DNA of 47,563 bases from Bacteriovoracaceae bacterium (lineage in GTDB: Bacteria > Bdellovibrionota > Bacteriovoracia > Bacteriovoracales > Bacteriovoracaceae): positions 1 to 47,563 of the forward strand of contig JAFMBV010000019.1 in the NCBI GenBank assembly GCA_017858255.1, written 5' to 3'. Shown piece by piece: positions 16,838-28,093 of this stretch (the stretch's first letter is position 1; each line of letters begins with the position of its first letter). Under the pieces are notes generated by a model. It ran no database searches, was not told the origin of the DNA, and saw nothing but the letters and a program-made list of their open reading frames with translations. The translations under genes were made by a program, and so were the position numbers.

Positions 16838-17578
16838 CTAATATAGAATTTGTGCCAAAAACTCTTGAGAACGCGGATGCTTAGGGTTAGAAAAAAAAGT
16901 TTCAGGGTCCGCTTCTTCAACAATTTGTCCTTCATCCATAAATATCACTCTATCGGCCACTTGCTTTGCAAAGCCCATCTCATGAGTCACACACAACATC
17001 GTCATGCCTTCTTTGGTAAGATCAACCATCACATCGAGTACTTCTTTGACCATTTCAGGATCGAGTGCAGAAGTTGGCTCATCAAAGAGCATAATTTTTG
17101 GTTTCATACAAAGGCTGCGGGCGATGGCCACTCGTTGCTGTTGTCCACCACTTAATTGTCCTGGATACTTATGGGCCTGATCCGAAATTGCCACTCTTTT
17201 TAGAAGATCCATTGCATAGGACTCGGCTTCTTCTTTTGGTAATTTATGAACCCACTGTGGGGCGAGTGTTAAATTTTCTAGAATCGAGAGATGCGGAAAG
17301 AGATTGAAGTGTTGAAAAACCATGCCCACTTCTTTTCTTACATTTTGAAGGTTTTTTAAATTACCATTGAGGACAATTCCATCAATAACGACTTTACCGT
17401 TTTGATGGGCTTCGAGTTGATTCAAACAACGAATGAGAGTAGATTTCCCGCTCCCTGAAGGTCCACAGATAACAATTTTTTCACCTTCAAATACATCTAG
17501 GTTTATATTTTTTAAGACATGAAAATCATCAAACCATTTATTCATATCAGTTAATTTGATCATAGGTTCTTTACTCAT
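16838..17578 (-). CDS. aapP: Amino-acid ABC transporter ATP-binding protein
   Basis: The 246-residue ATPase belongs to the polar-amino-acid (GlnQ/HisP/AapP) subfamily. It has Walker [10 protein letters not shown], the Q-loop in [12 protein letters not shown], the signature LSGGQQQR, Walker [15 protein letters not shown] and the switch His in CVTHEMGFA. It powers import by the AapQ/AapM permease pair. ATG 17576-17578 is chosen because it overlaps the aapM stop (ATGA); a longer frame runs upstream inside aapM and is not credible. The gene order aapQ-aapM-aapP is classical, but the binding-protein gene is displaced to 27074-28093. Confidence 0.94.
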
Positions 17579-18669
17579 GAACGACCACCATAGGAGAAAA
17601 CTTGTTCCAACCGCTTTGAGTAGCGAGACATGGAAAAACAAAAGATAAAATAAATTAAAGCAGCAAAGAGATACGCTTCGACAGAAAAGCCCAACCATTT
17701 GGGGTCTTTAAGCGATGTTTTGGTTGTCATCAGAAGATCACTTAAAGCGATAATAACGACCAAAGAAGTATCTTTAAACATACCAATAGCAGTATTTACT
17801 GTCGGAGGGATGACAATTTTTAAGGCCTGCGGAAGAATGACCTTAAGCATTTTTTGCCAATACATTAGCCCAAGAGCATCAGCTGCTTCGTACTGACCCT
17901 TATCAACCGCTGCCAGACCTCCCCTCACAACCTCTGCCATATAGGCTGACATAAACATAATAATGGCAATTTGCGCCCTTAGTAACTTTGGTAGGACAAT
18001 TCCATCTGGCATAAAAAGAGGAAACATTACGCTGGCCATGAATAATAAGCTAATCATGGGAACACCCCTTATTAGCTCAATATAACTGACGCTTAAAGCT
18101 TTGATTAATGGCAAAGAACCTGTTCGTGCTAAGGCCAAAAGAATACCAATTGGGTAAGAAAATATAAGACCTATGAAGGCGAGGATAAGTGTTAAGGGAA
18201 GCCCACCCCAGCGATCCATACTTACCGCTTCAAAACCAAATAGTCCGCCTTTTAACAAAAAAGCGCATAAGAGAATAAGCTTTAACCAACGCCATAATAA
18301 TAATTTATTCCATCTTTTAACATCTCGGCTATATAGGCATAGTCCAATAAAAAGGGAAATCGCAACAACAGGACGCCACAAAAGCTCTCGAGGATAGAAA
18401 CCAAATAGAATAAAAACAAATTTTTCCTTAATAAAAACAAGGCATGCGCCATCGTTATGTCGACAGGTTTGAGCTGTCCCCTCCCATGTAGAATTGACGA
18501 CGAGCCAATAAAATAATGGGCCTAAAGCTTTAAAGAGAAGTCCTAAAAGAACGAGACTAATGGCCGAGTTTAAGGGCGTTGAAAAAAGGTTTTTCTTCAT
18601 CCAAACAGCAAGGCCTTGCATTAAGGGAAGACTACGTTTTTCTGGATTTTTTGTGTACTTTAAATTCAA
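17575..18669 (-). CDS. aapM: Amino-acid ABC transporter permease AapM
   Basis: The 364-residue permease has a long N-terminal extension with several hydrophobic helices, then the binding-protein-dependent transport domain with [37 protein letters not shown] and the EAA loop [16 protein letters not shown]. Its size matches AapM/BztC-type permeases for general L-amino acids. The start is TTG at 18667-18669, overlapping the aapQ stop in a TTGA sequence and preceded by AAGGAG, so translation is probably coupled to aapQ. It overlaps aapP by four bases. Confidence 0.93.
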
Positions 18670-19850
18670 GCTCCGCGCTCCTTAAGCTGTTGGCTTCGGT
18701 TATAACGATTCATGACAAAAGAAGTGCTAAGGCTGAAAAACAAATAAACGCCCATAATAAGAATAACTGCTTCAATTGCCTGACCGGTTTGATTCATCGT
18801 TGTATTAGCAACGGCCACGAAGTCTGGGTAACCTATTCCTACAGCGAGGGAGCTATTTTTAATGAGGTTTAAAACCTGAGAAGTCATCGGAGGAATAATA
18901 ACTCTTAAACTTTGTGGTAAAACGACTAGTCTAAGCGTTTGCCAGCGACTGAGACCCAAAGCTTGTGAGGCCTCCCATTGCCCACGGGAGACAGACTCAA
19001 TCCCTGCCCTAACAATTTCACCATTAAACGCACCTGCATATATTACAAGACCTAGCATTAAGGCGACAAACTCGGGGGTTAGGGTCATACCACCAGAGAA
19101 ATTGAACCCGCCTAGCTGGGGAATATCCAACTCATGAGGAGCTCCTCCAAAAAACCAAATCAATATAGGTACAACAAAGAGAAAAAGAAGACCAAAAGGT
19201 AATAACGATTTTTTTTCTCCTGTTTTCTCTCGTAATTTATTTAAAAATAATGATGTGCCATAAGTTAGTAGCCCTCCGCCAATAAAGGTCATCCAAACCC
19301 ATTTCCATATAAAATGCTCTTTAAAAATAGGAAAGAAAAAGCCCCTTTGAGAGATAAAAACTCCAGGAATTGGATTAAGGGATTCTTTAACATCAGGAAA
19401 GATTTCAGTAAAAACTGCGTACCAAAAAAAGAGCTGCAACAGCAGGGGGATATTTCTCGCCAATTCAATATAGCTTTCACTAAGTTTGCTTAAAAGCCAA
19501 TTTGGCGAGAGTCTAAATATACCTACGAAAATACCTAATATAATGGCCAAGAAGTTACCAATGATGGCGACCTTAAAAGTATTGAGAATGCCAACGAATA
19601 GTGCCAACTGATAGGAGTCATCGGCCCAGTATTCAATGCTCGATTCAGAAATTTCGAAACCTGCCTCTTGCCCAAGGAAACTAAAGCCAGAGGCTATACT
19701 TTGGCGGGCCAAGTTTTCTTGGGTGTTTGTCACCAAAACAGTGCCTAACCCAAATATGGCAAAGAAAACGAGGAATTGAAAAAAATAACCCCGTTTCTTG
19801 GGGTCATACCAAAATTGTTGCCATGGACTCTTTTGTGAGAATTTTTCCAT
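18666..19850 (-). CDS. aapQ: Amino-acid ABC transporter permease AapQ
   Basis: The 394-residue permease carries the AapQ/BztB pattern: an N-terminal helix near residues 25-42, a periplasmic loop, GILNTFKVAIIGNFLAIILG, SYIELARNIPLLLQLFFWY, a large central loop with extra helices, and the EAA loop EASQALGLSRWQTLRLV. It forms the membrane channel with AapM. It is the first gene of the local minus-strand group. The 105-base gap upstream holds an inverted repeat (19891-19909) and then a divergent plus-strand operon rather than aapJ. Confidence 0.93.
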   Translation of the reverse strand: MEKFSQKSPWQQFWYDPKKRGYFFQFLVFFAIFGLGTVLVTNTQENLARQSIASGFSFLGQEAGFEISESSIEYWADDSYQLALFVGILNTFKVAIIGNFLAIILGIFVGIFRLSPNWLLSKLSESYIELARNIPLLLQLFFWYAVFTEIFPDVKESLNPIPGVFISQRGFFFPIFKEHFIWKWVWMTFIGGGLLTYGTSLFLNKLREKTGEKKSLLPFGLLFLFVVPILIWFFGGAPHELDIPQLGGFNFSGGMTLTPEFVALMLGLVIYAGAFNGEIVRAGIESVSRGQWEASQALGLSRWQTLRLVVLPQSLRVIIPPMTSQVLNLIKNSSLAVGIGYPDFVAVANTTMNQTGQAIEAVILIMGVYLFFSLSTSFVMNRYNRSQQLKERGA

Positions 19851-19890
19851 AATTGAATTTTAGATTCAGCCCTAGACTCTGACAACAAAT

Positions 19891-19909
19891 CCCGACAAAA
19901 CAAGTCGGG
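19891..19909. repeat. Hairpin CCCGAC-N7-GTCGGG upstream of aapQ
   Basis: Perfect 6-bp arms flank a 7-base AT-rich loop in the divergent gap between aapQ and the plus-strand module. On the minus strand it is followed by ATTTGTTGTC, a weak T tract, so it could be an attenuator or terminator left from a time when aapJ lay directly upstream. An operator is also possible. Confidence 0.35.
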
Positions 19910-19955
19910 CAAAAAAATTGTGACGTATTCCTTTGATTTTCTTAATATAACGCTT

Positions 19956-21335
19956 ATGAAAAAGTCTTGGATATTTATCCTTTGTTTATTGGCCTCAAAC
20001 CTGTCCTTTGCAGATTCCACCGCTCTTTTTGAGAGGTGCCAAAGTATTTTTCTTGGAGGCAAGCTTCTTCAAAACCTTATTGATGAAGAAGAGGCAGTTA
20101 AAGAAGAGAACGCCAGTGATGGAGAATATTTAAAAAAGTTAAAGGCCCTAAAAAAAGCAAGCAGCTGTCTATCGCTACTTGAGCATGCTCAGTTAAAAAC
20201 GAGCGGTATTTTATTAGACCGTACCCCCCTCGCCTCGCTTATTCTTAAATCTTTTGTGAAGTTTCACCAAAACTGGTTGATGCCAACTGATTATGACAAA
20301 GCACCTCAATGCCAAGATCCATTTCATGATGAGGTTTTTGACCCTAAAACGCCGGCCTACCATCTAACCCGCGCTCTTTTTCAGCGCGATCGCAAGGTCA
20401 GTATGGCGATTACCGCATTTGGAGACCTCAGAAGTATACGCCAGGGGGAAAATCCAAAAAAGTCAGAGAGAAGCTCTATTTCAGGCGAAGAATATCAGAG
20501 CATGTTGGGTCTCAAAGAACCCTTAGATCTTGTGGGCGATTCACAACTCGTCGGCTTTCTTTATAAAGGTCAGGTACAGTTTGAAAAGGTCGCTCCAATT
20601 AATTGGTCCCAAACAAATAGTAGTTGGGACAAAAGCCGTGAGAGAAAAAAGTTTAAGCTCTATAACCATTTAGGTGGTGGTCTCATTGGAAGTCCAAGTT
20701 ATCTGATTCACTATGCTCCCAATCAAGCATTTAATACAAAGCTTTATCAAACTGACGGTAGGACTAATCTGCCACGTAAACTCGCTTTGGGCATATTTAA
20801 TGGAATTCTTTGTAAAGAGCCTAACGAAAGCGTAACGAGCGTTAAGATTGACGCCGCTAATAAATGGATTCATCCAATAACGAGTGAACAAAAGTGTTTA
20901 GGTTGCCATACTCCCTTGGACCACTTTGCTTCAGGTTTACGTCACCTTACTTATCTTAATAGCGCCAGCAACTCTAAGTGTAGTAAGGACAACCCCCAGG
21001 TACTTATTCCCGCAAACTTTGAAACATCTTATTCTAAAGAAGTATGGCAAGCCCCTCAAGACCCTAATGGCAAGAAGGAATCCTTTTCTTTCTCTTACCC
21101 CGTTGGATACTATGAAGAAGAAAGATTTGTGGGCTTTAATCAACTCGGGCGCCTATTGGCCCAGAGACCAGAATTTTATCAATGCCAAGTACAAAAATAT
21201 TATCACTATCTTTTTGAAAAAGATATTCAAAGTGAACTAAAGGTCAAATTGGCCACCAAGTATCAGGAACATCAAGATGGTCTCAAATTAATTCAAGATC
21301 TCATCAGTAATGCTCCAAAGGATTTGAAGAAATGA
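19956..21335 (+). CDS. Exported CXXCH protein of DUF1588/DUF1585 type
   Basis: The 459-residue product starts at ATG 19956. A signal peptide of about 19 residues ends in NLSFADS. One c-type haem motif, CLGCH (residues 314-318), sits in QKCLGCHTPLDHFASGL, which resembles the CxxCHxxxDPxGF segment of DUF1588. The preceding RTNLPRKLALGIFNGILC resembles that family's entry helix, and the later GRLLAQRPEFYQCQVQKYY resembles DUF1585. These domains are common in planctomycetes and myxobacteria, next to DUF1501/DUF1552 genes; their function is unknown. The stop overlaps the next start (ATGA), so the two proteins are probably made together. No convincing ribosome binding site is visible. Redox function is inferred only from the haem motif. 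Confidence 0.75.
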   Translation: MKKSWIFILCLLASNLSFADSTALFERCQSIFLGGKLLQNLIDEEEAVKEENASDGEYLKKLKALKKASSCLSLLEHAQLKTSGILLDRTPLASLILKSFVKFHQNWLMPTDYDKAPQCQDPFHDEVFDPKTPAYHLTRALFQRDRKVSMAITAFGDLRSIRQGENPKKSERSSISGEEYQSMLGLKEPLDLVGDSQLVGFLYKGQVQFEKVAPINWSQTNSSWDKSRERKKFKLYNHLGGGLIGSPSYLIHYAPNQAFNTKLYQTDGRTNLPRKLALGIFNGILCKEPNESVTSVKIDAANKWIHPITSEQKCLGCHTPLDHFASGLRHLTYLNSASNSKCSKDNPQVLIPANFETSYSKEVWQAPQDPNGKKESFSFSYPVGYYEEERFVGFNQLGRLLAQRPEFYQCQVQKYYHYLFEKDIQSELKVKLATKYQEHQDGLKLIQDLISNAPKDLKK

Positions 21336-22474
21336 ATCCTTTAAATAGACGGCAATTCTTAAGACAAAGTTTTTTGACGAGTATTTCAGGCCTCGTTGGC
21401 TGTCAGATGGATTACCCCAATAAACCCTATCAAGTCTTTTGGCTCCACTTAGAGGGTGCTCCTCTAAGAACGCCATTTGATCTATGGATCGATCCCTATT
21501 CACACCTTAAGAGCTTTAACCCTCCTTTTGAACAAACAAAAATATCAAAAAATGACACAAGAATGGAAGTCCCCAACGTTTGGAAAGATAAACAGGGGAA
21601 CGTAAGCCCTCTGATGGATAATCTTCTGATGTTTAGGGGGCTCACAAGCCAAAGCCCTCACCTCAAACAATGCCGAAAGGAATGGTTTCGAGGTCCTGAA
21701 ATAACTAAACTATTAAAAGAATTAAAAGAAAACAAACAAAGCTTTCATTTTCAAGGTCAAGAAAAGGCACTCGACAATACTTACGCCCAGCTTCTTGGTA
21801 AAGAAAACCAAAGAAGAAATGAGGTTAAGTTTTCCTCTAACGCCACAAAAGAATGGGCCAACCAAACCGCTAAACAGAACCCTACTCTCCTAAAAACCTT
21901 TTCATCTTGGCACCAGTGTTTAAGAGAAAAGAAAAAAGGGGACATTGGTTTAGAACTCTCCGTCATTAATTCTTTTGGAAAGGCCCCACGATACTTTGAG
22001 GGCCTATCTGAAATTGACCAAGCATCTATGACAGAACTGCAAGACTTCTATAGAGACTTGATTCGAGGCCTTGAAGTTTTTGTTCAAGAGCTAAAGGTTC
22101 ATCGCCAGTTTAATGAGACTATGATTCTTATTACTTCTGATCGTGCACGGGTTCTTACTAATAATCAGTACCCTTTAAAGAGTGAGCCAATGTGGCAAGG
22201 GCTTAACTTCTCCCTTATAGGTGGCGCATTAAAGGGTCCCGTTACTATGGGTCATATTGCAAGAAACCACCCTAAATACTCACAACCATATCCTGGTACC
22301 TGGGGTTTCGGTCTGAATGACTGGAGTCCATCTAATGTCCACCAATTACTAGCAGACCTTTGCCTGCTCAAAAGCTATAATTCTACTAAGAACTGGTCTT
22401 CTAGCAACCCCTGGATTGATTTAAAGCCACTAGGTTCAGTCTTAGTAAAAACTGCCCCAGGAAAAATATTTTAA
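21332..22474 (+). CDS. Tat-signal DUF1501-like protein
   Basis: The 380-residue protein opens with a twin-arginine motif (NRRQFLRQS) followed by a hydrophobic stretch ending in LVGC, so it is probably exported folded and perhaps lipidated. The body resembles the DUF1501 (alkaline-phosphatase-like) family: VFWLHLEGAPLRTPFD near the start, and ETMILITSDRARVLTNN followed by FSLIGGALKGPVTMGH near residues 265-310, matching the family's SEFGR and GGxxxGG segments. The usual SEFGR residues are altered (SDRAR), so metal binding may be changed. It overlaps the cytochrome-like gene by four bases and is followed after nine bases by an RND exporter, forming a compact operon. Confidence 0.7.
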   Translation: MNPLNRRQFLRQSFLTSISGLVGCQMDYPNKPYQVFWLHLEGAPLRTPFDLWIDPYSHLKSFNPPFEQTKISKNDTRMEVPNVWKDKQGNVSPLMDNLLMFRGLTSQSPHLKQCRKEWFRGPEITKLLKELKENKQSFHFQGQEKALDNTYAQLLGKENQRRNEVKFSSNATKEWANQTAKQNPTLLKTFSSWHQCLREKKKGDIGLELSVINSFGKAPRYFEGLSEIDQASMTELQDFYRDLIRGLEVFVQELKVHRQFNETMILITSDRARVLTNNQYPLKSEPMWQGLNFSLIGGALKGPVTMGHIARNHPKYSQPYPGTWGFGLNDWSPSNVHQLLADLCLLKSYNSTKNWSSSNPWIDLKPLGSVLVKTAPGKIF

Positions 22475-22483
22475 AAGAGCATC

Positions 22484-24919
22484 ATGAAAGAATCACCTAA
22501 TAATCCTCCTAAAGATAATCCTAAAGATCATCTTCAAAAATTCAAAGAAATGAAATTGGCCAACAGATGGGCGACTTTCATCGTTAACAAACCTTATAAG
22601 GCCTTAGGACTATTTTTAATTGCACTTCTCATTTTCTTGCCAGGGGTATTATCCATCCAGAGCAAATGGTCTCCTCGAATATGGTTTGATGAAGGCCATC
22701 CTCAAATTGAAAGACTTAATCGTTTTGAACAGCAGTTTGGAAGCGACACCTTCATTAGTCTCGGCTTTTATCACCCAGAAGGCGTTTTTAATAATGAGGT
22801 TCTCAAAGTCATCCAACAAGTTACCGAAGAGATGTGGCTGGTAAAAGATGTCATTAGAGTAGAGTCCCTTAGTAATTATAATATTATAAAGGCCGAGGGT
22901 GATGACATCATCATTAACTCATTTCTTGAAGAAATTAATGAAAAGTCGCTTCTCTCTTCAGAAAGATTAAACGCCCTAAGATCTGAAGCGCTTGCTGATG
23001 ACGTCCTTCCTGACTTCTTTCTCAGTAAAGATTCAACCTATGCCATCCTTTACGCTTACCTCATTCCAGGCCTTGGAGGAAAAGAGCCAAACTTCATCAA
23101 GGCCGTTGCCCAAACAAGGGAGATTATTAAAAAGTATCAAACAGGTGATTTAAAAATTCTGCTTACAGGACCAGCTGCCGGAAATGATGCCTTTAGAGAA
23201 GTAAGTAGAAGTGACAATATTAAGCTCATTCCCTTTATGTTCTTCTTTATTGTTGTCTTACTTTTTATTCAATTTAGAAGTTACTCAACGATTATTTTGT
23301 CTCTAGGCCTCATTGGAACAACGATCGGCGTAACTTTCGGCATGATGGGTCATATAGGAATCATCTTTAATAGCCTACTAGCGGCGATACCTGGTGTTTT
23401 ACTTGCTATTTGTATTGCTGATGCTGTTCATATTTTTACGAGCTACTTTTACTTTCGAAGCCTAGAATACCATTCAAAAGAGGCCATTCACTTAAGCCTC
23501 ATAAAGAACTTCCAACCAACTCTCCTCACCTCATTTTCAACGGCAATAAGCTTCGCTAGTATTACCCATACAGATATTGCTCCGATTAGAGACCTTGGAA
23601 TATTATGCTGTTTCGGCACCCTTATGGCCTGGCTATTTACCTATCTTATCATTGGCCCGCTTCTCTCTCTCGCCTCAAAGAAACTTGATCTTTATCCTGT
23701 TAAGACTTTTGAGTTTTATCGCTTTATTGGTAAAAAAAACCACTCGCAAAGAAGTAGGGCCAGCTCATACCTTATGGCCCATTTTATTTTAAAGGCACGA
23801 TATCTCATTATTTTTTCCTTCATCATCATTAGTGTCCTGAGCGTTATCATTGCCTTAAGAAATGAGGTCAACTCAGACCCAATGAAGTACTTTCATGAGT
23901 CAGTGCCCATTCGCCAAGCCTATGACTTCACAGGAACAAAACTTGATGGTCTCAGAGGCATAGAGCTTGTTGTTGATTCTGGAAAAGCAGAAGGAATAAA
24001 AGAACCTGAATTTTTAAATAGACTTGATAAATTTATGAACTGGATGGTTACCGATAAAGATATCACAAGGGTTCGCTCAGCGAGAGAGATCATAAAGAAG
24101 ATGAATCAAACTCTCCATCAAGGCAAACAAAGTGAATACCGTATTCCCGATTCTGCAGAGGCCGTAGGCCAACTTCTCTTCCTATACACAATAGGTCTTC
24201 CCCAAGGGATGGATTTAAATAACCAGTTCACTCTAGATAATCGCCTCTTAAGAATTAAAGTTACCTGGAAAATAGGTTCTTCAAAAGAGAGTGAAATTAA
24301 AAAAGATTACCTCATTGAGAAAGCAAAGGAGTTTGGATTAGATATGGCCGCGGGTGGAAATGCCCCGATTTACCTTTCTATGAACCAAAAAGTTGTCGAA
24401 ACGTTTTTTAGTTCAATGGCCATGGCCTTATGCCTTGTGAGTCTCCTACTCTTTCTTGTCTATCGAGATTTTTTCATCAGTATCTTGGCCATGCTACCAA
24501 ATGTTATCCCCTTAATCTTTGGTGGCGCTCTAATGGAACTACTTGATAAGCCCATCGACATTGGTACCTCTATTGTAAGTACGGTTTGCCTTGGCATTGC
24601 TGTTGATGACACGATTCACTTTATTTCTAGCTATAAGCAATACCGCTCCCATGGTCTCAATCCCATAGATGCCATTACAGAAACATTTCTAGTTACTGGA
24701 AAGGCACTGGTTGTGACAACGATTCTCTTAGTCGTGGGATTTGGTGCTTTTATCTTTGCTGATTTTGTACCAAATAGAAACTTTGGCCTTCTTTGTTCGA
24801 TGATTCTGGCCTTGGCGTTACTTACGGACCTTCTTTTTCTCCCAGCTCTACTTCTCACCATTGACCGAGGGGATAAAAAGGCAGAGGGAAATCAGGACGA
24901 AGCTTTACCCACTAATTAG
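22484..24919 (+). CDS. RND/MMPL-family exporter
   Basis: The 811-residue inner-membrane protein has the two-fold RND layout. There is a membrane helix near residues 38-60, a large periplasmic loop, then a bundle of five helices. The second half repeats this, with a helix near 433-457, a second loop, and a final bundle. The paired MMPL signatures are visible: AICIADAVHIFTSYF in the first half and GIAVDDTIHFISSYKQYR in the second, where the aspartates carry protons in known members. Relatives move lipids, hopanoids or other hydrophobic molecules out of the inner membrane. It lies nine bases after the DUF1501-like gene, so cargo linked to those two exported proteins is plausible but unproven. 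Confidence 0.9.
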   Translation: MKESPNNPPKDNPKDHLQKFKEMKLANRWATFIVNKPYKALGLFLIALLIFLPGVLSIQSKWSPRIWFDEGHPQIERLNRFEQQFGSDTFISLGFYHPEGVFNNEVLKVIQQVTEEMWLVKDVIRVESLSNYNIIKAEGDDIIINSFLEEINEKSLLSSERLNALRSEALADDVLPDFFLSKDSTYAILYAYLIPGLGGKEPNFIKAVAQTREIIKKYQTGDLKILLTGPAAGNDAFREVSRSDNIKLIPFMFFFIVVLLFIQFRSYSTIILSLGLIGTTIGVTFGMMGHIGIIFNSLLAAIPGVLLAICIADAVHIFTSYFYFRSLEYHSKEAIHLSLIKNFQPTLLTSFSTAISFASITHTDIAPIRDLGILCCFGTLMAWLFTYLIIGPLLSLASKKLDLYPVKTFEFYRFIGKKNHSQRSRASSYLMAHFILKARYLIIFSFIIISVLSVIIALRNEVNSDPMKYFHESVPIRQAYDFTGTKLDGLRGIELVVDSGKAEGIKEPEFLNRLDKFMNWMVTDKDITRVRSAREIIKKMNQTLHQGKQSEYRIPDSAEAVGQLLFLYTIGLPQGMDLNNQFTLDNRLLRIKVTWKIGSSKESEIKKDYLIEKAKEFGLDMAAGGNAPIYLSMNQKVVETFFSSMAMALCLVSLLLFLVYRDFFISILAMLPNVIPLIFGGALMELLDKPIDIGTSIVSTVCLGIAVDDTIHFISSYKQYRSHGLNPIDAITETFLVTGKALVVTTILLVVGFGAFIFADFVPNRNFGLLCSMILALALLTDLLFLPALLLTIDRGDKKAEGNQDEALPTN

Positions 24920-25020
24920 AAGCGTCTCCTCTTTATACAGAGCTATAGTTATTACAACTCAAGCTCTCTAATCACACGCCTGTTCTAAACTATTATTAGC
25001 TGAACTTAAGGATTAAAGAC

Positions 25021-25611
25021 GTGTTTAAGAGACTCTTAAAACTCATCATAATGAGCTTCATATTATCAAACAATGCTCTAGGAATAGAGTTTACGAAGAA
25101 GTTTAATAAGTCAGAAAACCCCACTCAAGACTTTCAAAAGCAAAGTTTTAATTTTGAGGAGCGCTTAGAAGAGGCACGCTTAGAGGCCGAAAGAATCGTT
25201 GCCCTACTTGCCGCAGACAATACCTATCGAGCAGGCATTCTCTATCAAGGCAATATTGAGAGAACCTTTAAAAGTCTACAAAACATCACATTTACATGGG
25301 ATCGGTCAGGAAAAAACTTTGGTAGATGTGATAGTCAAACTTTTGCCTATGTCATCAAACTCTATTCAAAGTAGCATCGCTATAATGTGAATATTTGTCC
25401 AATATTACTACTACAGCCGTTTTCCATTTTAACTCAAGTCCTTATCCACGAAGCCGCCCATCTTGGTTTTGGAGCAAGCGAATGCCAAGCAACTGCTTTT
25501 GAAGTGCTCACCCTTCATTATAGCTCCTTTGAGGAAGTTTTCCGAACACCTTATTGGGATAAATGCAGCACGGACAAGCTCAATAAATTATTTACTGAAA
25601 GGCTTCAATAA
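25021..25611 (+). pseudogene. Exported HEAAH metallopeptidase-like gene with in-frame TAG
   Basis: Read from GTG 25021 (AAGGA upstream) the frame runs 117 codons, meets TAG at 25372-25374, then stays open in the same frame to TAA at 25609-25611, for 196 codons in all. The first part has a signal peptide (about 22 residues, ending NALGIE) and a helical region. The part after the stop carries VLIHEAAHLGFGASECQATAFE, with the zinc motif His143-Glu144-x-x-His147 and a possible third ligand at Glu154. The two parts fit one secreted protein of a family in which an ICP-type segment precedes HEAAH. A single nonsense change is the simplest explanation; readthrough is the alternative. An ORF starting at GTG 25387 would lack a signal peptide. 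Confidence 0.75.
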
Positions 25612-25690
25612 TTTCTATGGTCAAGAAATCTTGAACATTTAAACTTTTCAATACATTAAAGAATTCCATCTAAGCTGCTAAAATATTACC

Positions 25691-26350
25691 ATGGATGCAA
25701 CTTCTAGATTAACTTTGAAACTACGCCTTGTTCGCCAAGGGCTCTTGCTAACTCAGCAAGATGTCGCTGACCAACTTGGGATTAGCCTTCGTACTTATCA
25801 AAGATTAGAAGCAGGTCAATCGCCTCTCGATGCCGCCACTGTCATACACTTTTGTGACAAGTATAATTTTTCTTTTCTCGATTTTACCCATCCTAATATA
25901 AATGTAAGCGAGTGCACAGACTCTGAGTTCTTTAACTTTGATAAGAAATTCTATATTCATAGTGATATCCATCAAAAAAGCTTCGAAGAAGTCAAACCTG
26001 TTATTAATGAGAAAAAATCAAATCTCTTAAAAGTTCTCGAATCACCTTCTTTTCATGCAGCGCCAGCGGCACTAATGGTGGCAGATGCTTCTATTACAGT
26101 AGCTAACGAAAGTTTACTTAAAATCGCCCCTCAACTTAATGAGAGTAAATGGAAGACCATGAGTAAATGGGATAATTTTAACGAACAAGTAAAGGCTTGG
26201 GATGTATGCCTCAAAGATGATTACATGGGGTTTCATTCTAAATGCGCGATTAAAAGTGACAAGACGATTATACCTGTAAAAAGCTATAATCTGATGCTAA
26301 ATAAAGATAAAGATAACCCCATTTTAATCAGACAAATTATTACTTTATGA
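25691..26350 (+). CDS. XRE-family regulator with PAS-like C-terminal domain (copy 1)
   Basis: The 219-residue protein has an N-terminal helix-turn-helix of the XRE/Cro type (about residues 8-62, core TQQDVADQLGISLRTYQRLE). The C-terminal half contains APAALMVADASITVANESLL, which resembles the first strands of a PAS sensor domain, and then a KAWDVCLKDDYMG segment shared in pattern with the next gene. It is followed 19 bases later by a paralogue (26370-27077), so the two are probably co-transcribed. The ligand or signal is unknown. The ribosome binding site is poor; ATG 25691 is the only start that keeps the whole DNA-binding domain. Confidence 0.82.
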   Translation: MDATSRLTLKLRLVRQGLLLTQQDVADQLGISLRTYQRLEAGQSPLDAATVIHFCDKYNFSFLDFTHPNINVSECTDSEFFNFDKKFYIHSDIHQKSFEEVKPVINEKKSNLLKVLESPSFHAAPAALMVADASITVANESLLKIAPQLNESKWKTMSKWDNFNEQVKAWDVCLKDDYMGFHSKCAIKSDKTIIPVKSYNLMLNKDKDNPILIRQIITL

Positions 26351-26369
26351 AAGGTGATGTAAAATAAAA

Positions 26370-27077
26370 ATGAATTTTTCTGAATTATCTAAACCTATTG
26401 ATAAACTTTCTCGTTTACTTATTCGTCTAAGAATTTATCGAATGGGAAAGCAAATTACTCAGCAAGAAATCGCCGATAAACTTGGCCTCAGTATAAGAAC
26501 CTATCAAAGGCTGGAGCAAGGCCTTGCGCCTATAGAGATGAGCACTCTTTATAAAACTGCTGAGGTCTTCGACCTTTCCTACGACAAACTTGCAGGTGCT
26601 GTATACACTGAGAGTGATATTCCCAATGTTACTTTTATCGAAAGTTTTGAAAATATTCCCTTGGCGCCAAATATAGACCCCATGGAGATACAAAAAACGT
26701 TTTCACAACTCATCTCCCTACTAAGAGATGGGAGCTATACACCCAAAGAGCTATACAAGGCTCAGGAATTTAAAAATAACGCTTTTGAACTCTTCTATTG
26801 TGAACCCGCTTTCACCTTTTATAACAAAAGCCTCCGAAAAAAAAATGAGCCAATAAATAAGGCCAAGGAAAGTACTATTAAGCACTTATCAGATTATGAA
26901 TTTTTCATTCGCTTATGGGAAGTTTGTTACCAAAAAATCAATCATCCTTGGTTTTTAGCAACTACCGAGCATGAGAGGTTTGGTCAAAAATTAGAGGTTC
27001 TGACTATTAATCATTTTATTATTCATGAAGGGCAACCGTTTAATTTGGGAATGGTCCTTAATAGACATTCTATTTAA
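26370..27077 (+). CDS. XRE-family regulator with PAS-like C-terminal domain (copy 2)
   Basis: The 235-residue protein is a paralogue of its neighbour: the XRE helix-turn-helix (about residues 14-72) has TQQEIADKLGLSIRTYQRLE, nearly the same recognition region as copy 1. The C-terminal half has EPAFTFYNKSLRKKNE, aligning with the PAS-like segment, and FIRLWEVCYQK, aligning with KAWDVCLKD. Similar recognition helices suggest related operators or heterodimers. Its TAA shares bases with the stop of aapJ on the other strand (27074-27077), so the two genes converge with a 4-base overlap. Confidence 0.82.
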   Translation: MNFSELSKPIDKLSRLLIRLRIYRMGKQITQQEIADKLGLSIRTYQRLEQGLAPIEMSTLYKTAEVFDLSYDKLAGAVYTESDIPNVTFIESFENIPLAPNIDPMEIQKTFSQLISLLRDGSYTPKELYKAQEFKNNAFELFYCEPAFTFYNKSLRKKNEPINKAKESTIKHLSDYEFFIRLWEVCYQKINHPWFLATTEHERFGQKLEVLTINHFIIHEGQPFNLGMVLNRHSI

Positions 27078-28093
27078 CGAATAGGCGGAGCATACATAAG
27101 CCCACCTTTGGTCCAAAGATTATTTAAACCCCTTTCAAGCTTTAAAGAACTATCTTTTCCAATATTGCGATCAAAGACTTCCCCGTAGTTTCCTACTTTT
27201 TTAATTATAGAATAGGCCCAATCCTCTGAGAGCCCCAAGGCCTTTCCATTCCCTGGAGTCACTCCAAGTAATCTTTTAATATTAGGAACCTTTGTCGATT
27301 TTTTTACTTTATCGACATTTTTAGAATTTATCCCATACTCTTCAGCACTAATCATCGCGAACACAGACCACTTAACTATATCAAACCATTGGTCATCACC
27401 ATGAATCACTGCAGGACCTAAGGGCTCTTTAGAGATCACTTCTTCTAAGATTAGATAATCATCGGGACTCTTCGTTTTTGACCTCTCGGCAACTAGTCCA
27501 GAGGCATCATTAGTAAAGGCGTCACAGCGGCCCTTGAAAAAGGCCTGAGTTACTTCATCATTAGATTCAAAAACAACTGTTTTCATTTTTAAGCGGTTTG
27601 CCCTGAAGTAGTCGGCCAGATTCAGCTCTGATGTCGTGCCCTGCTGAGTACAAATAGTGGCCCCATTTAATTCTTTAATTTTGGTCACCTTGTCTTTGCG
27701 ACGAACCATAAAGCCCTGACCGTCATAAAATATAGTTGGCCCGAAATTTAAACCCAAAGAGGTGTCACGAGTTAAGGTCCAAGTAGTAACGCGAGAGAGA
27801 AGATCAATCTCACCAGACTGTAAGGCCGTGAAGCGGGCCTGTCCGGAGAGAGGAACAAATTTCACTTTACTTGGATCACCTAAAACGGCCGCGGCCACTG
27901 CTCGGCAAACATCAACCTCAATTCCGAACCAATTCCCCTTTGAATCGGGCGCAGAAAAGCCAGCAACTCCCATCGTCGTTCCACAATTGACCATTTTTCT
28001 TTTTAAAACTTTATCTAAAATGGAATTTCCAAAAGAAGGTGTCACTAGAAGAAGAAAAATAAGCGCAGCGCACAATTTTAACTGATTTAGCAT
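27074..28093 (-). CDS. aapJ: General L-amino-acid ABC transporter substrate-binding protein
   Basis: The 339-residue periplasmic protein has a signal peptide of about 22 residues ending in PSFGNS and the family-3 solute-binding fold: VNCGTTMGVAGFSAPDSKGN at the start, GIEVDVCRAVAAAVLGDP, the RFTALQSGEIDLLSR ligand segment, GATICTQQGTTSELNLADYF, and CDAFTNDASGL in the second lobe. These are diagnostic of AapJ/BztA, which binds a wide range of L-amino acids. In rhizobia the gene heads aapJQMP. Here the permease and ATPase genes lie 7 kb downstream on the same strand with opposite-strand genes between. The start ATG has GAGG upstream. Confidence 0.93.
   Translation of the reverse strand: MLNQLKLCAALIFLLLVTPSFGNSILDKVLKRKMVNCGTTMGVAGFSAPDSKGNWFGIEVDVCRAVAAAVLGDPSKVKFVPLSGQARFTALQSGEIDLLSRVTTWTLTRDTSLGLNFGPTIFYDGQGFMVRRKDKVTKIKELNGATICTQQGTTSELNLADYFRANRLKMKTVVFESNDEVTQAFFKGRCDAFTNDASGLVAERSKTKSPDDYLILEEVISKEPLGPAVIHGDDQWFDIVKWSVFAMISAEEYGINSKNVDKVKKSTKVPNIKRLLGVTPGNGKALGLSEDWAYSIIKKVGNYGEVFDRNIGKDSSLKLERGLNNLWTKGGLMYAPPIR

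Follow-up and report, generated by a model that had tools for sequence, protein, structure and literature searches.

A reduced cytochrome-DUF1501 gene pair next to an RND transporter gene in the genus of a Bacteriovoracaceae bacterium

Related systems

In Verrucomicrobia and Planctomycetes, genes for cytochromes of the PSCyt3/PSD2 type (DUF1588/DUF1585) lie next to partner genes whose function is unknown (PMC5615132). Units that combine a DUF1588/1585 cytochrome with a DUF1501 protein are widespread, and our literature search gave no paper that assigns a function to them; searches for DUF1501 together with DUF1588, and for DUF1501 in predatory bacteria, found no functional work. A second system of interest is PbgA/YejM, whose periplasmic domain has an alkaline-phosphatase fold without the usual catalytic residues and is tied to the handling of envelope lipids (PMC7018646).

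A three-gene cluster

We analyzed a cluster of three genes in the window, that is, in the whole 47,563-nucleotide stretch of DNA, which is from a Bacteriovoracaceae bacterium. The cluster and the transport genes on either side of it are:

Gene 1, 19956-21335, + strand: 459 aa, predicted exported protein with a single CXXCH
Gene 2, 21332-22474, + strand: 380 aa, twin-arginine, lipoprotein-like protein
Gene 3, 22484-24919, + strand: 811 aa, MMPL-type RND protein
aapQMP-like genes, 16838-19850, - strand: amino acid ABC permeases and ATPase; outside the trio and divergent from gene 1
aapJ-like gene, 27074-28093, - strand: amino acid ABC substrate-binding protein; outside the trio and parted from aapQMP

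The preliminary description of this DNA reported three packed open reading frames at 19956-24919 on the + strand, and their coordinates confirm this: genes 1 and 2 overlap by 4 bases (ATGA), and 9 bases separate gene 2 from gene 3. Also as described, gene 1 has a single CXXCH, gene 2 contains SDRAR (residues 269-273), and gene 3 encodes an RND/MMPL pump (Pfam MMPL, 1.7e-31). Scans of the locus for promoters and terminators gave scores no better than those of shuffled sequences.

The window's cluster shares several features with the PSCyt3/PSD2 units: predicted export, a haem-bearing DUF1588/1585 segment at the C terminus, and a conserved neighboring gene. However, gene 1 has no family match beyond the C-terminal segment, lacks the second haem near the N terminus, and scores below the Pfam cut-offs; also, its partner is degenerate and an RND gene comes next.

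Conservation within the genus

To see how the trio is distributed, we used a sample of 192 genomes: the window's own genome and its relatives. Seven of these belong to the window's genus, and the six relatives among them are metagenome-assembled genomes labelled Bacteriovoracaceae, Bacteriovoracia, Bacteriovoracales, or Halobacteriovoraceae. Gene 1 is present in all seven genomes and full-length gene 2 in six. The order of the trio is kept in all six unbroken loci (the window's included), with protein identities of 33-83%. The 4-base overlap between genes 1 and 2 is found in each of these loci, and the gap between genes 2 and 3 is 7-12 nucleotides in five of them. In the seventh genome (G003), a contig ends inside gene 1, and a piece of the RND gene lies beside aapJ on another contig (L083), which is consistent with the same arrangement. 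Because the order and the overlap are retained across six diverged genomes, the arrangement is above chance.

The pair outside the genus

We also examined the surroundings of 28 homologues of gene 1 that do not belong to the genus's reduced version. Seven were reached via gene 2, and gene 1 was the sole basis of choice for the other 21; two of the 28 are further copies in genomes of the same genus (G001 and G006). In all 28, a DUF1501-like gene is either the immediate neighbor or separated by a single gene, and these partners are full length, except for a split one (L129) and one that is cut by the end of a contig. The cytochrome-DUF1501 pair is thus found throughout the phylum Bdellovibrionota. 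No RND gene of the window's type lies beside any of the 28 pairs within the stretches examined, some of which are on short contigs. So, a search for linkage in relatives, as the preliminary description proposed, gives a split answer: the trio holds together within one genus, and outside it the pair and the RND gene are separate.

Many of the 28 pairs (L088-L094 and L116-L135) are accompanied by a third secreted protein of about 180-240 aa (for example, L119 3598-4200, - strand), with the consensus F.GGPCDIYEQ...LR.G..LK.C...CxSPxWQ. Within the window's genus, this "GGPCD" protein is limited to G001 and G006, two genomes with further copies of gene 1; it is absent from the other five genomes (G000, G002, G003, G004, and G005). 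We considered whether it might survive elsewhere in the window's genome (G000), and its absence there rules this out. The triad and the window's cluster share homologous, adjacent genes 1 and 2. The triad differs in that the DUF1501 partner is longer (about 530-600 aa) and has the SEFNR, SDHG, and DxH motifs, in its third secreted protein of about 200 aa, and in lacking an RND. Functional work would find a clearer target in the phylum-wide triad, with its third secreted protein, than in the window's cluster.

Three minor observations concern these pairs. Several genomes have three to six matches to gene 1. In G026, two cytochrome/DUF1501 units face each other (L127 2097-13303). In the second pair of G001, the DUF1501-like gene is broken into two open reading frames in the assembly (L129 8024-9673).

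The insertion site

In the window, an operon of the aapJQMP type is interrupted by a block that is largely on the opposite strand (16838-28093). The gap between aapJ and aapQ is closed, with aapJ and aapQMP adjacent, in seven genera and filled in four. In the window's genus, in G022 and G063 (which belong to one genus, g17), in G050, and in G040, this gap contains the RND gene, oriented opposite to aapQ and aapJ. The pair is absent from this site in these four other genomes, which have other genes there. The RND occupies the site in three other genera where the pair is missing, so its residence there does not depend on the pair. In g17, for instance, an exported protein with a single CXXCH (312 or 297 aa; L084 5464-6402 and L173 9453-10346) lies between the RND and aapJ. 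The copy from G022 (L084) is weakly similar to SoxX. In g17, the RND has a haem protein of another kind next to it.

Since the pair exists elsewhere without the RND, and the RND can hold this site without the pair, neither needs the other: in the trio, two separable units have merged, and only in this genus. The arrival of the pair in this genus only is a simpler account than its loss elsewhere. The trio is a reduced variant of the cytochrome-DUF1501 unit plus a transporter and does not form a new category. The preliminary description had proposed one undescribed three-part system; the cluster is indeed conserved, but only within one genus, and it is at best a genus-level merger.

These data also bear on whether the merger is a coincidence of position. 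The pair might have landed by a resident RND gene in the gap between aapJ and aapQ, shared at most a promoter with it, and kept the job that is typical of the phylum. We consider this a real possibility, though short of even odds. It would explain why three other genera have the RND at this site but not the pair. Also, the gap is elsewhere filled by unrelated genes (the weakly SoxX-like cytochrome of 312 or 297 aa, and proteins of about 270 aa), so the site looks tolerant of insertions. However, coincidence does not readily account for the order and short spacing that are kept across six strongly diverged genomes. Nor does it account for the specific alteration of the pair: the long branch, the lost motifs (see below), and the missing third partner suggest a changed role.

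Gene 1 is a probable remote relative of DUF1588/DUF1585 proteins

Gene 1 begins with what we judged by eye to be a Sec-type signal, MKKSWIFILCLLASNLSFADS. Its haem motif (C314-LG-C317-H318) is invariant as CXXCH in 15 of 15 aligned relatives; four other cysteines (C28, C71, C286, and C410) are also invariant across these relatives, which include other genera. The host genome encodes TatC and a cytochrome c assembly protein (PF01578). Predicted export, a conserved CXXCH, and haem-attachment machinery in the genome are the features by which we would recognize a c-type cytochrome, and gene 1 has all three.

The family assignment is less direct. The only Pfam match is to DUF1585 (PSD2), at E=0.049 and 13.8 bits versus a cut-off of 25.8; DUF1588 was not reported by the Pfam search, and NCBIfam gave no added match for gene 1 or gene 2. 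A profile built without the genus does match gene 1, at 5.3e-52 (the best of 1000 shuffles reached 0.55). When we used hhalign to compare a broad alignment of gene 1 with true DUF1588/1585 proteins of the phylum, the probability was 95.6 (P=1.3e-8), and the match spans the CXXCH and the C-terminal segment. With an alignment from the genus only, the probability was 88.4; an unrelated profile, as a control, gave 0.3. These comparisons support gene 1 as a putative remote homologue of DUF1588/DUF1585 proteins (PSCyt3/PSD2-like), in reduced form. Structural data added little: a search of PDB sequences with the gene 1 alignment found nothing, and the structure model (pLDDT 56) was too poor to serve as a query. 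In a tree, a long branch leads to a single clade (support 1.0) that holds the genus's gene 1 cytochromes; the additional copies from G001 and G006 that were included fall outside it.

Gene 2 is a probable DUF1501 derivative that has lost signature motifs

Gene 2 starts with MNPLNRRQFLRQSFLTSISGLVGC, which includes a twin-arginine motif (NRRQFLR) followed by a lipobox-like cysteine (LVGC, Cys24). By eye, four of the six genus members have a lipobox (LVGC, LTGC, LLGC, or LSSC), G005 has a marginal one (TTSC), and G006 has none. A Tat motif with a lipobox-like cysteine is found in three of the six, a Sec-type signal in two, and a Tat motif without the cysteine in one.

Pfam's DUF1501 model (PF07394, cut-off 27 bits) does not match gene 2 at E values up to 1, and the host genome's only Pfam DUF1501 sits elsewhere, on contig C153. 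However, full-length relatives (L089 and L090) pass the DUF1501 cut-off, and a profile built without the genus matches gene 2 at 1e-20 (best of 1000 shuffles, 0.17), which rescues the homology of gene 2 to DUF1501. Thus, for both genes, the family assignments of the preliminary description are literally rejected by Pfam, an outcome that the description had itself named as refuting, but homology at the remote or superfamily level is recovered through intermediates, by HMMs for both genes and by hhalign for gene 1.

Among the positions that are each shared by at least 24 of the 28 outside relatives are those of a D-x-H-x-x-G motif, those of E-F-x-R (SEFNR), and the histidine of SDHG. In the window's genus, about 130 middle residues are missing, SEFxR has become SDR (gene 2 carries ITSDRARV), and SDHG and DxH are gone. 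The conserved positions that are lost or changed are D435, H437, E487, F488, and H501 (L119 numbering). Both histidines are absent from all six proteins, and the changes of E to D and F to R are found in all six. The N-terminal G-x-P...D motif is still present in all six. We considered whether gene 2 might be decaying and ruled this out: six genomes have it with an open frame, and its second codon positions are constrained. Between the window and G002, dN is 0.29 and dS is near saturation.

A search of PDB sequences with the canonical DUF1501 protein of contig C153 gave nothing meaningful. The AF2 model of gene 2 has a pLDDT of 65.7, which is moderate. In a Foldseek search with this model, LtaS-type proteins ranked first (E 1.6e-6); upon realignment, sulfatases, BcsG, EptC, and YejM had Z scores of 9.6-11, and the best match (VIA-align) had Z 11.0 and an rmsd of 4.6 over 240 residues. 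The predicted fold of gene 2 is probably that of the alkaline-phosphatase/sulfatase superfamily, with moderate confidence given the pLDDT of the model.

The preliminary description allowed for hydrolase chemistry. Gene 2 is unlikely to have such an activity: the residues that full-length relatives conserve most are gone from all six genus members. Gene 2 might nevertheless still be catalytic, as an alkaline-phosphatase superfamily enzyme whose metal site has been re-wired; it would then act on an envelope lipid that the RND handles and have the haem protein as its redox partner. The fold, which resembles LtaS, EptC, and sulfatases, would fit, as would four acidic or histidine residues (E41, D50, H110, and D270) that are invariant in the six members. 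But the D-x-H and SDHG motifs are lost in every member. Also, SDR has an Arg after its aspartate, where His is usual in the alkaline-phosphatase superfamily. This makes an active enzyme unlikely; gene 2 is most likely a lipid-anchored pseudo-hydrolase scaffold.

Gene 3 is probably a proton-driven RND transporter

Gene 3 scores 109.8 bits against Pfam MMPL (PF03176), well above the cut-off of 20.5. It is similar to the HAE3 (3e-43), HpnN (9e-29), and BstA (3e-7) models but is below all of the family cut-offs; for HAE3 (TIGR00921), the score is 147.9 bits, against a cut-off of 351.9. It shares MMPL domains and transmembrane Asp motifs with these lipid transporters but differs from them in its operon partners. 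Its two Asp motifs (ADAVHIF from residue 312 and AVDDTIHF from residue 706) are kept in 10 of 10 relatives, and because both conserved transmembrane motifs contain an Asp, the RND is probably proton-driven. As the nearest models are HAE3, HpnN, and BstA, its substrate may be a hydrophobic compound of the envelope. No gene for a substrate, an adaptor, or an outer-membrane channel is apparent in the cluster.

Possible roles of the trio

Our preferred explanation, to which we give a probability of roughly 40%, is that the haem protein and the pseudo-hydrolase serve or modulate an envelope-lipid RND. It rests on the conservation of the cluster in one genus. That the pair is functionally coupled to the RND is a guess, and it is the weakest step. 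On this account, a reduced, fast-evolving cytochrome (DUF1588/1585)-DUF1501 pair lies ahead of an HAE3/HpnN-like RND in one gene cluster. Gene 1 would be exported by Sec and receive one covalent haem. Gene 2 would be exported by Tat (or by Sec, in two of the relatives), become anchored to lipid, and act as a non-catalytic scaffold that keeps the haem protein at the membrane. The RND, driven by the proton gradient, would transport an envelope compound that is hydrophobic or amphiphilic, and the pair might bind, oxidize, or gate this compound in the periplasm, by comparison with PbgA/YejM. That comparison is an analogy of fold only, since gene 2 is a separate, lipoprotein-like protein that is not fused to a membrane domain. 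Also, one paper bears the title "The essential inner membrane protein YejM is a metalloenzyme," so YejM is contested as a non-catalytic precedent.

A more specific version is that of a redox-gated lipid transporter, in which the dead DUF1501 lipoprotein would dock the haem protein onto an HAE3-type RND pump. We think this quite unlikely, but if it is true, the cytochrome/DUF1501 group would have its first testable function, that of a periplasmic complex coupled to transport. Alternatively, genes 1 and 2 might sense redox state as a lipoprotein complex and thereby regulate the pump, with no chemistry on a substrate. Four or five of the six members have a lipobox-like cysteine after the Tat or Sec signal, which would suit such a complex, and the periplasmic domain of PbgA, with its usual catalytic residues missing, might be an analogue (PMC7018646). 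As gene 2 resembles PbgA in fold only, we rate pure sensing as very unlikely.

To return to the preferred explanation, a partner that lacks the motifs and is encoded together with a transporter suggests that, at least here, the pair has a role in binding or redox reactions rather than in hydrolysis. The window's variant allows a concrete test of epistasis, and its class of transporter is approachable.

Other genes at the site

Between the trio and aapJ, the window contains two tandem, related XRE-like regulators (25691-27077, + strand). The tandem is kept in G001 and G002, reduced to one copy in G006, and absent in G004 and G005. The window also contains an open reading frame of 117 aa (25021-25605, + strand) that matches the beginning of a G002 protein of 188 aa (L077 11823-12389, with an HEAAH motif). 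The similarity (68%) runs past the in-frame stop, which could reflect a nonsense mutation, a sequencing error, or readthrough.
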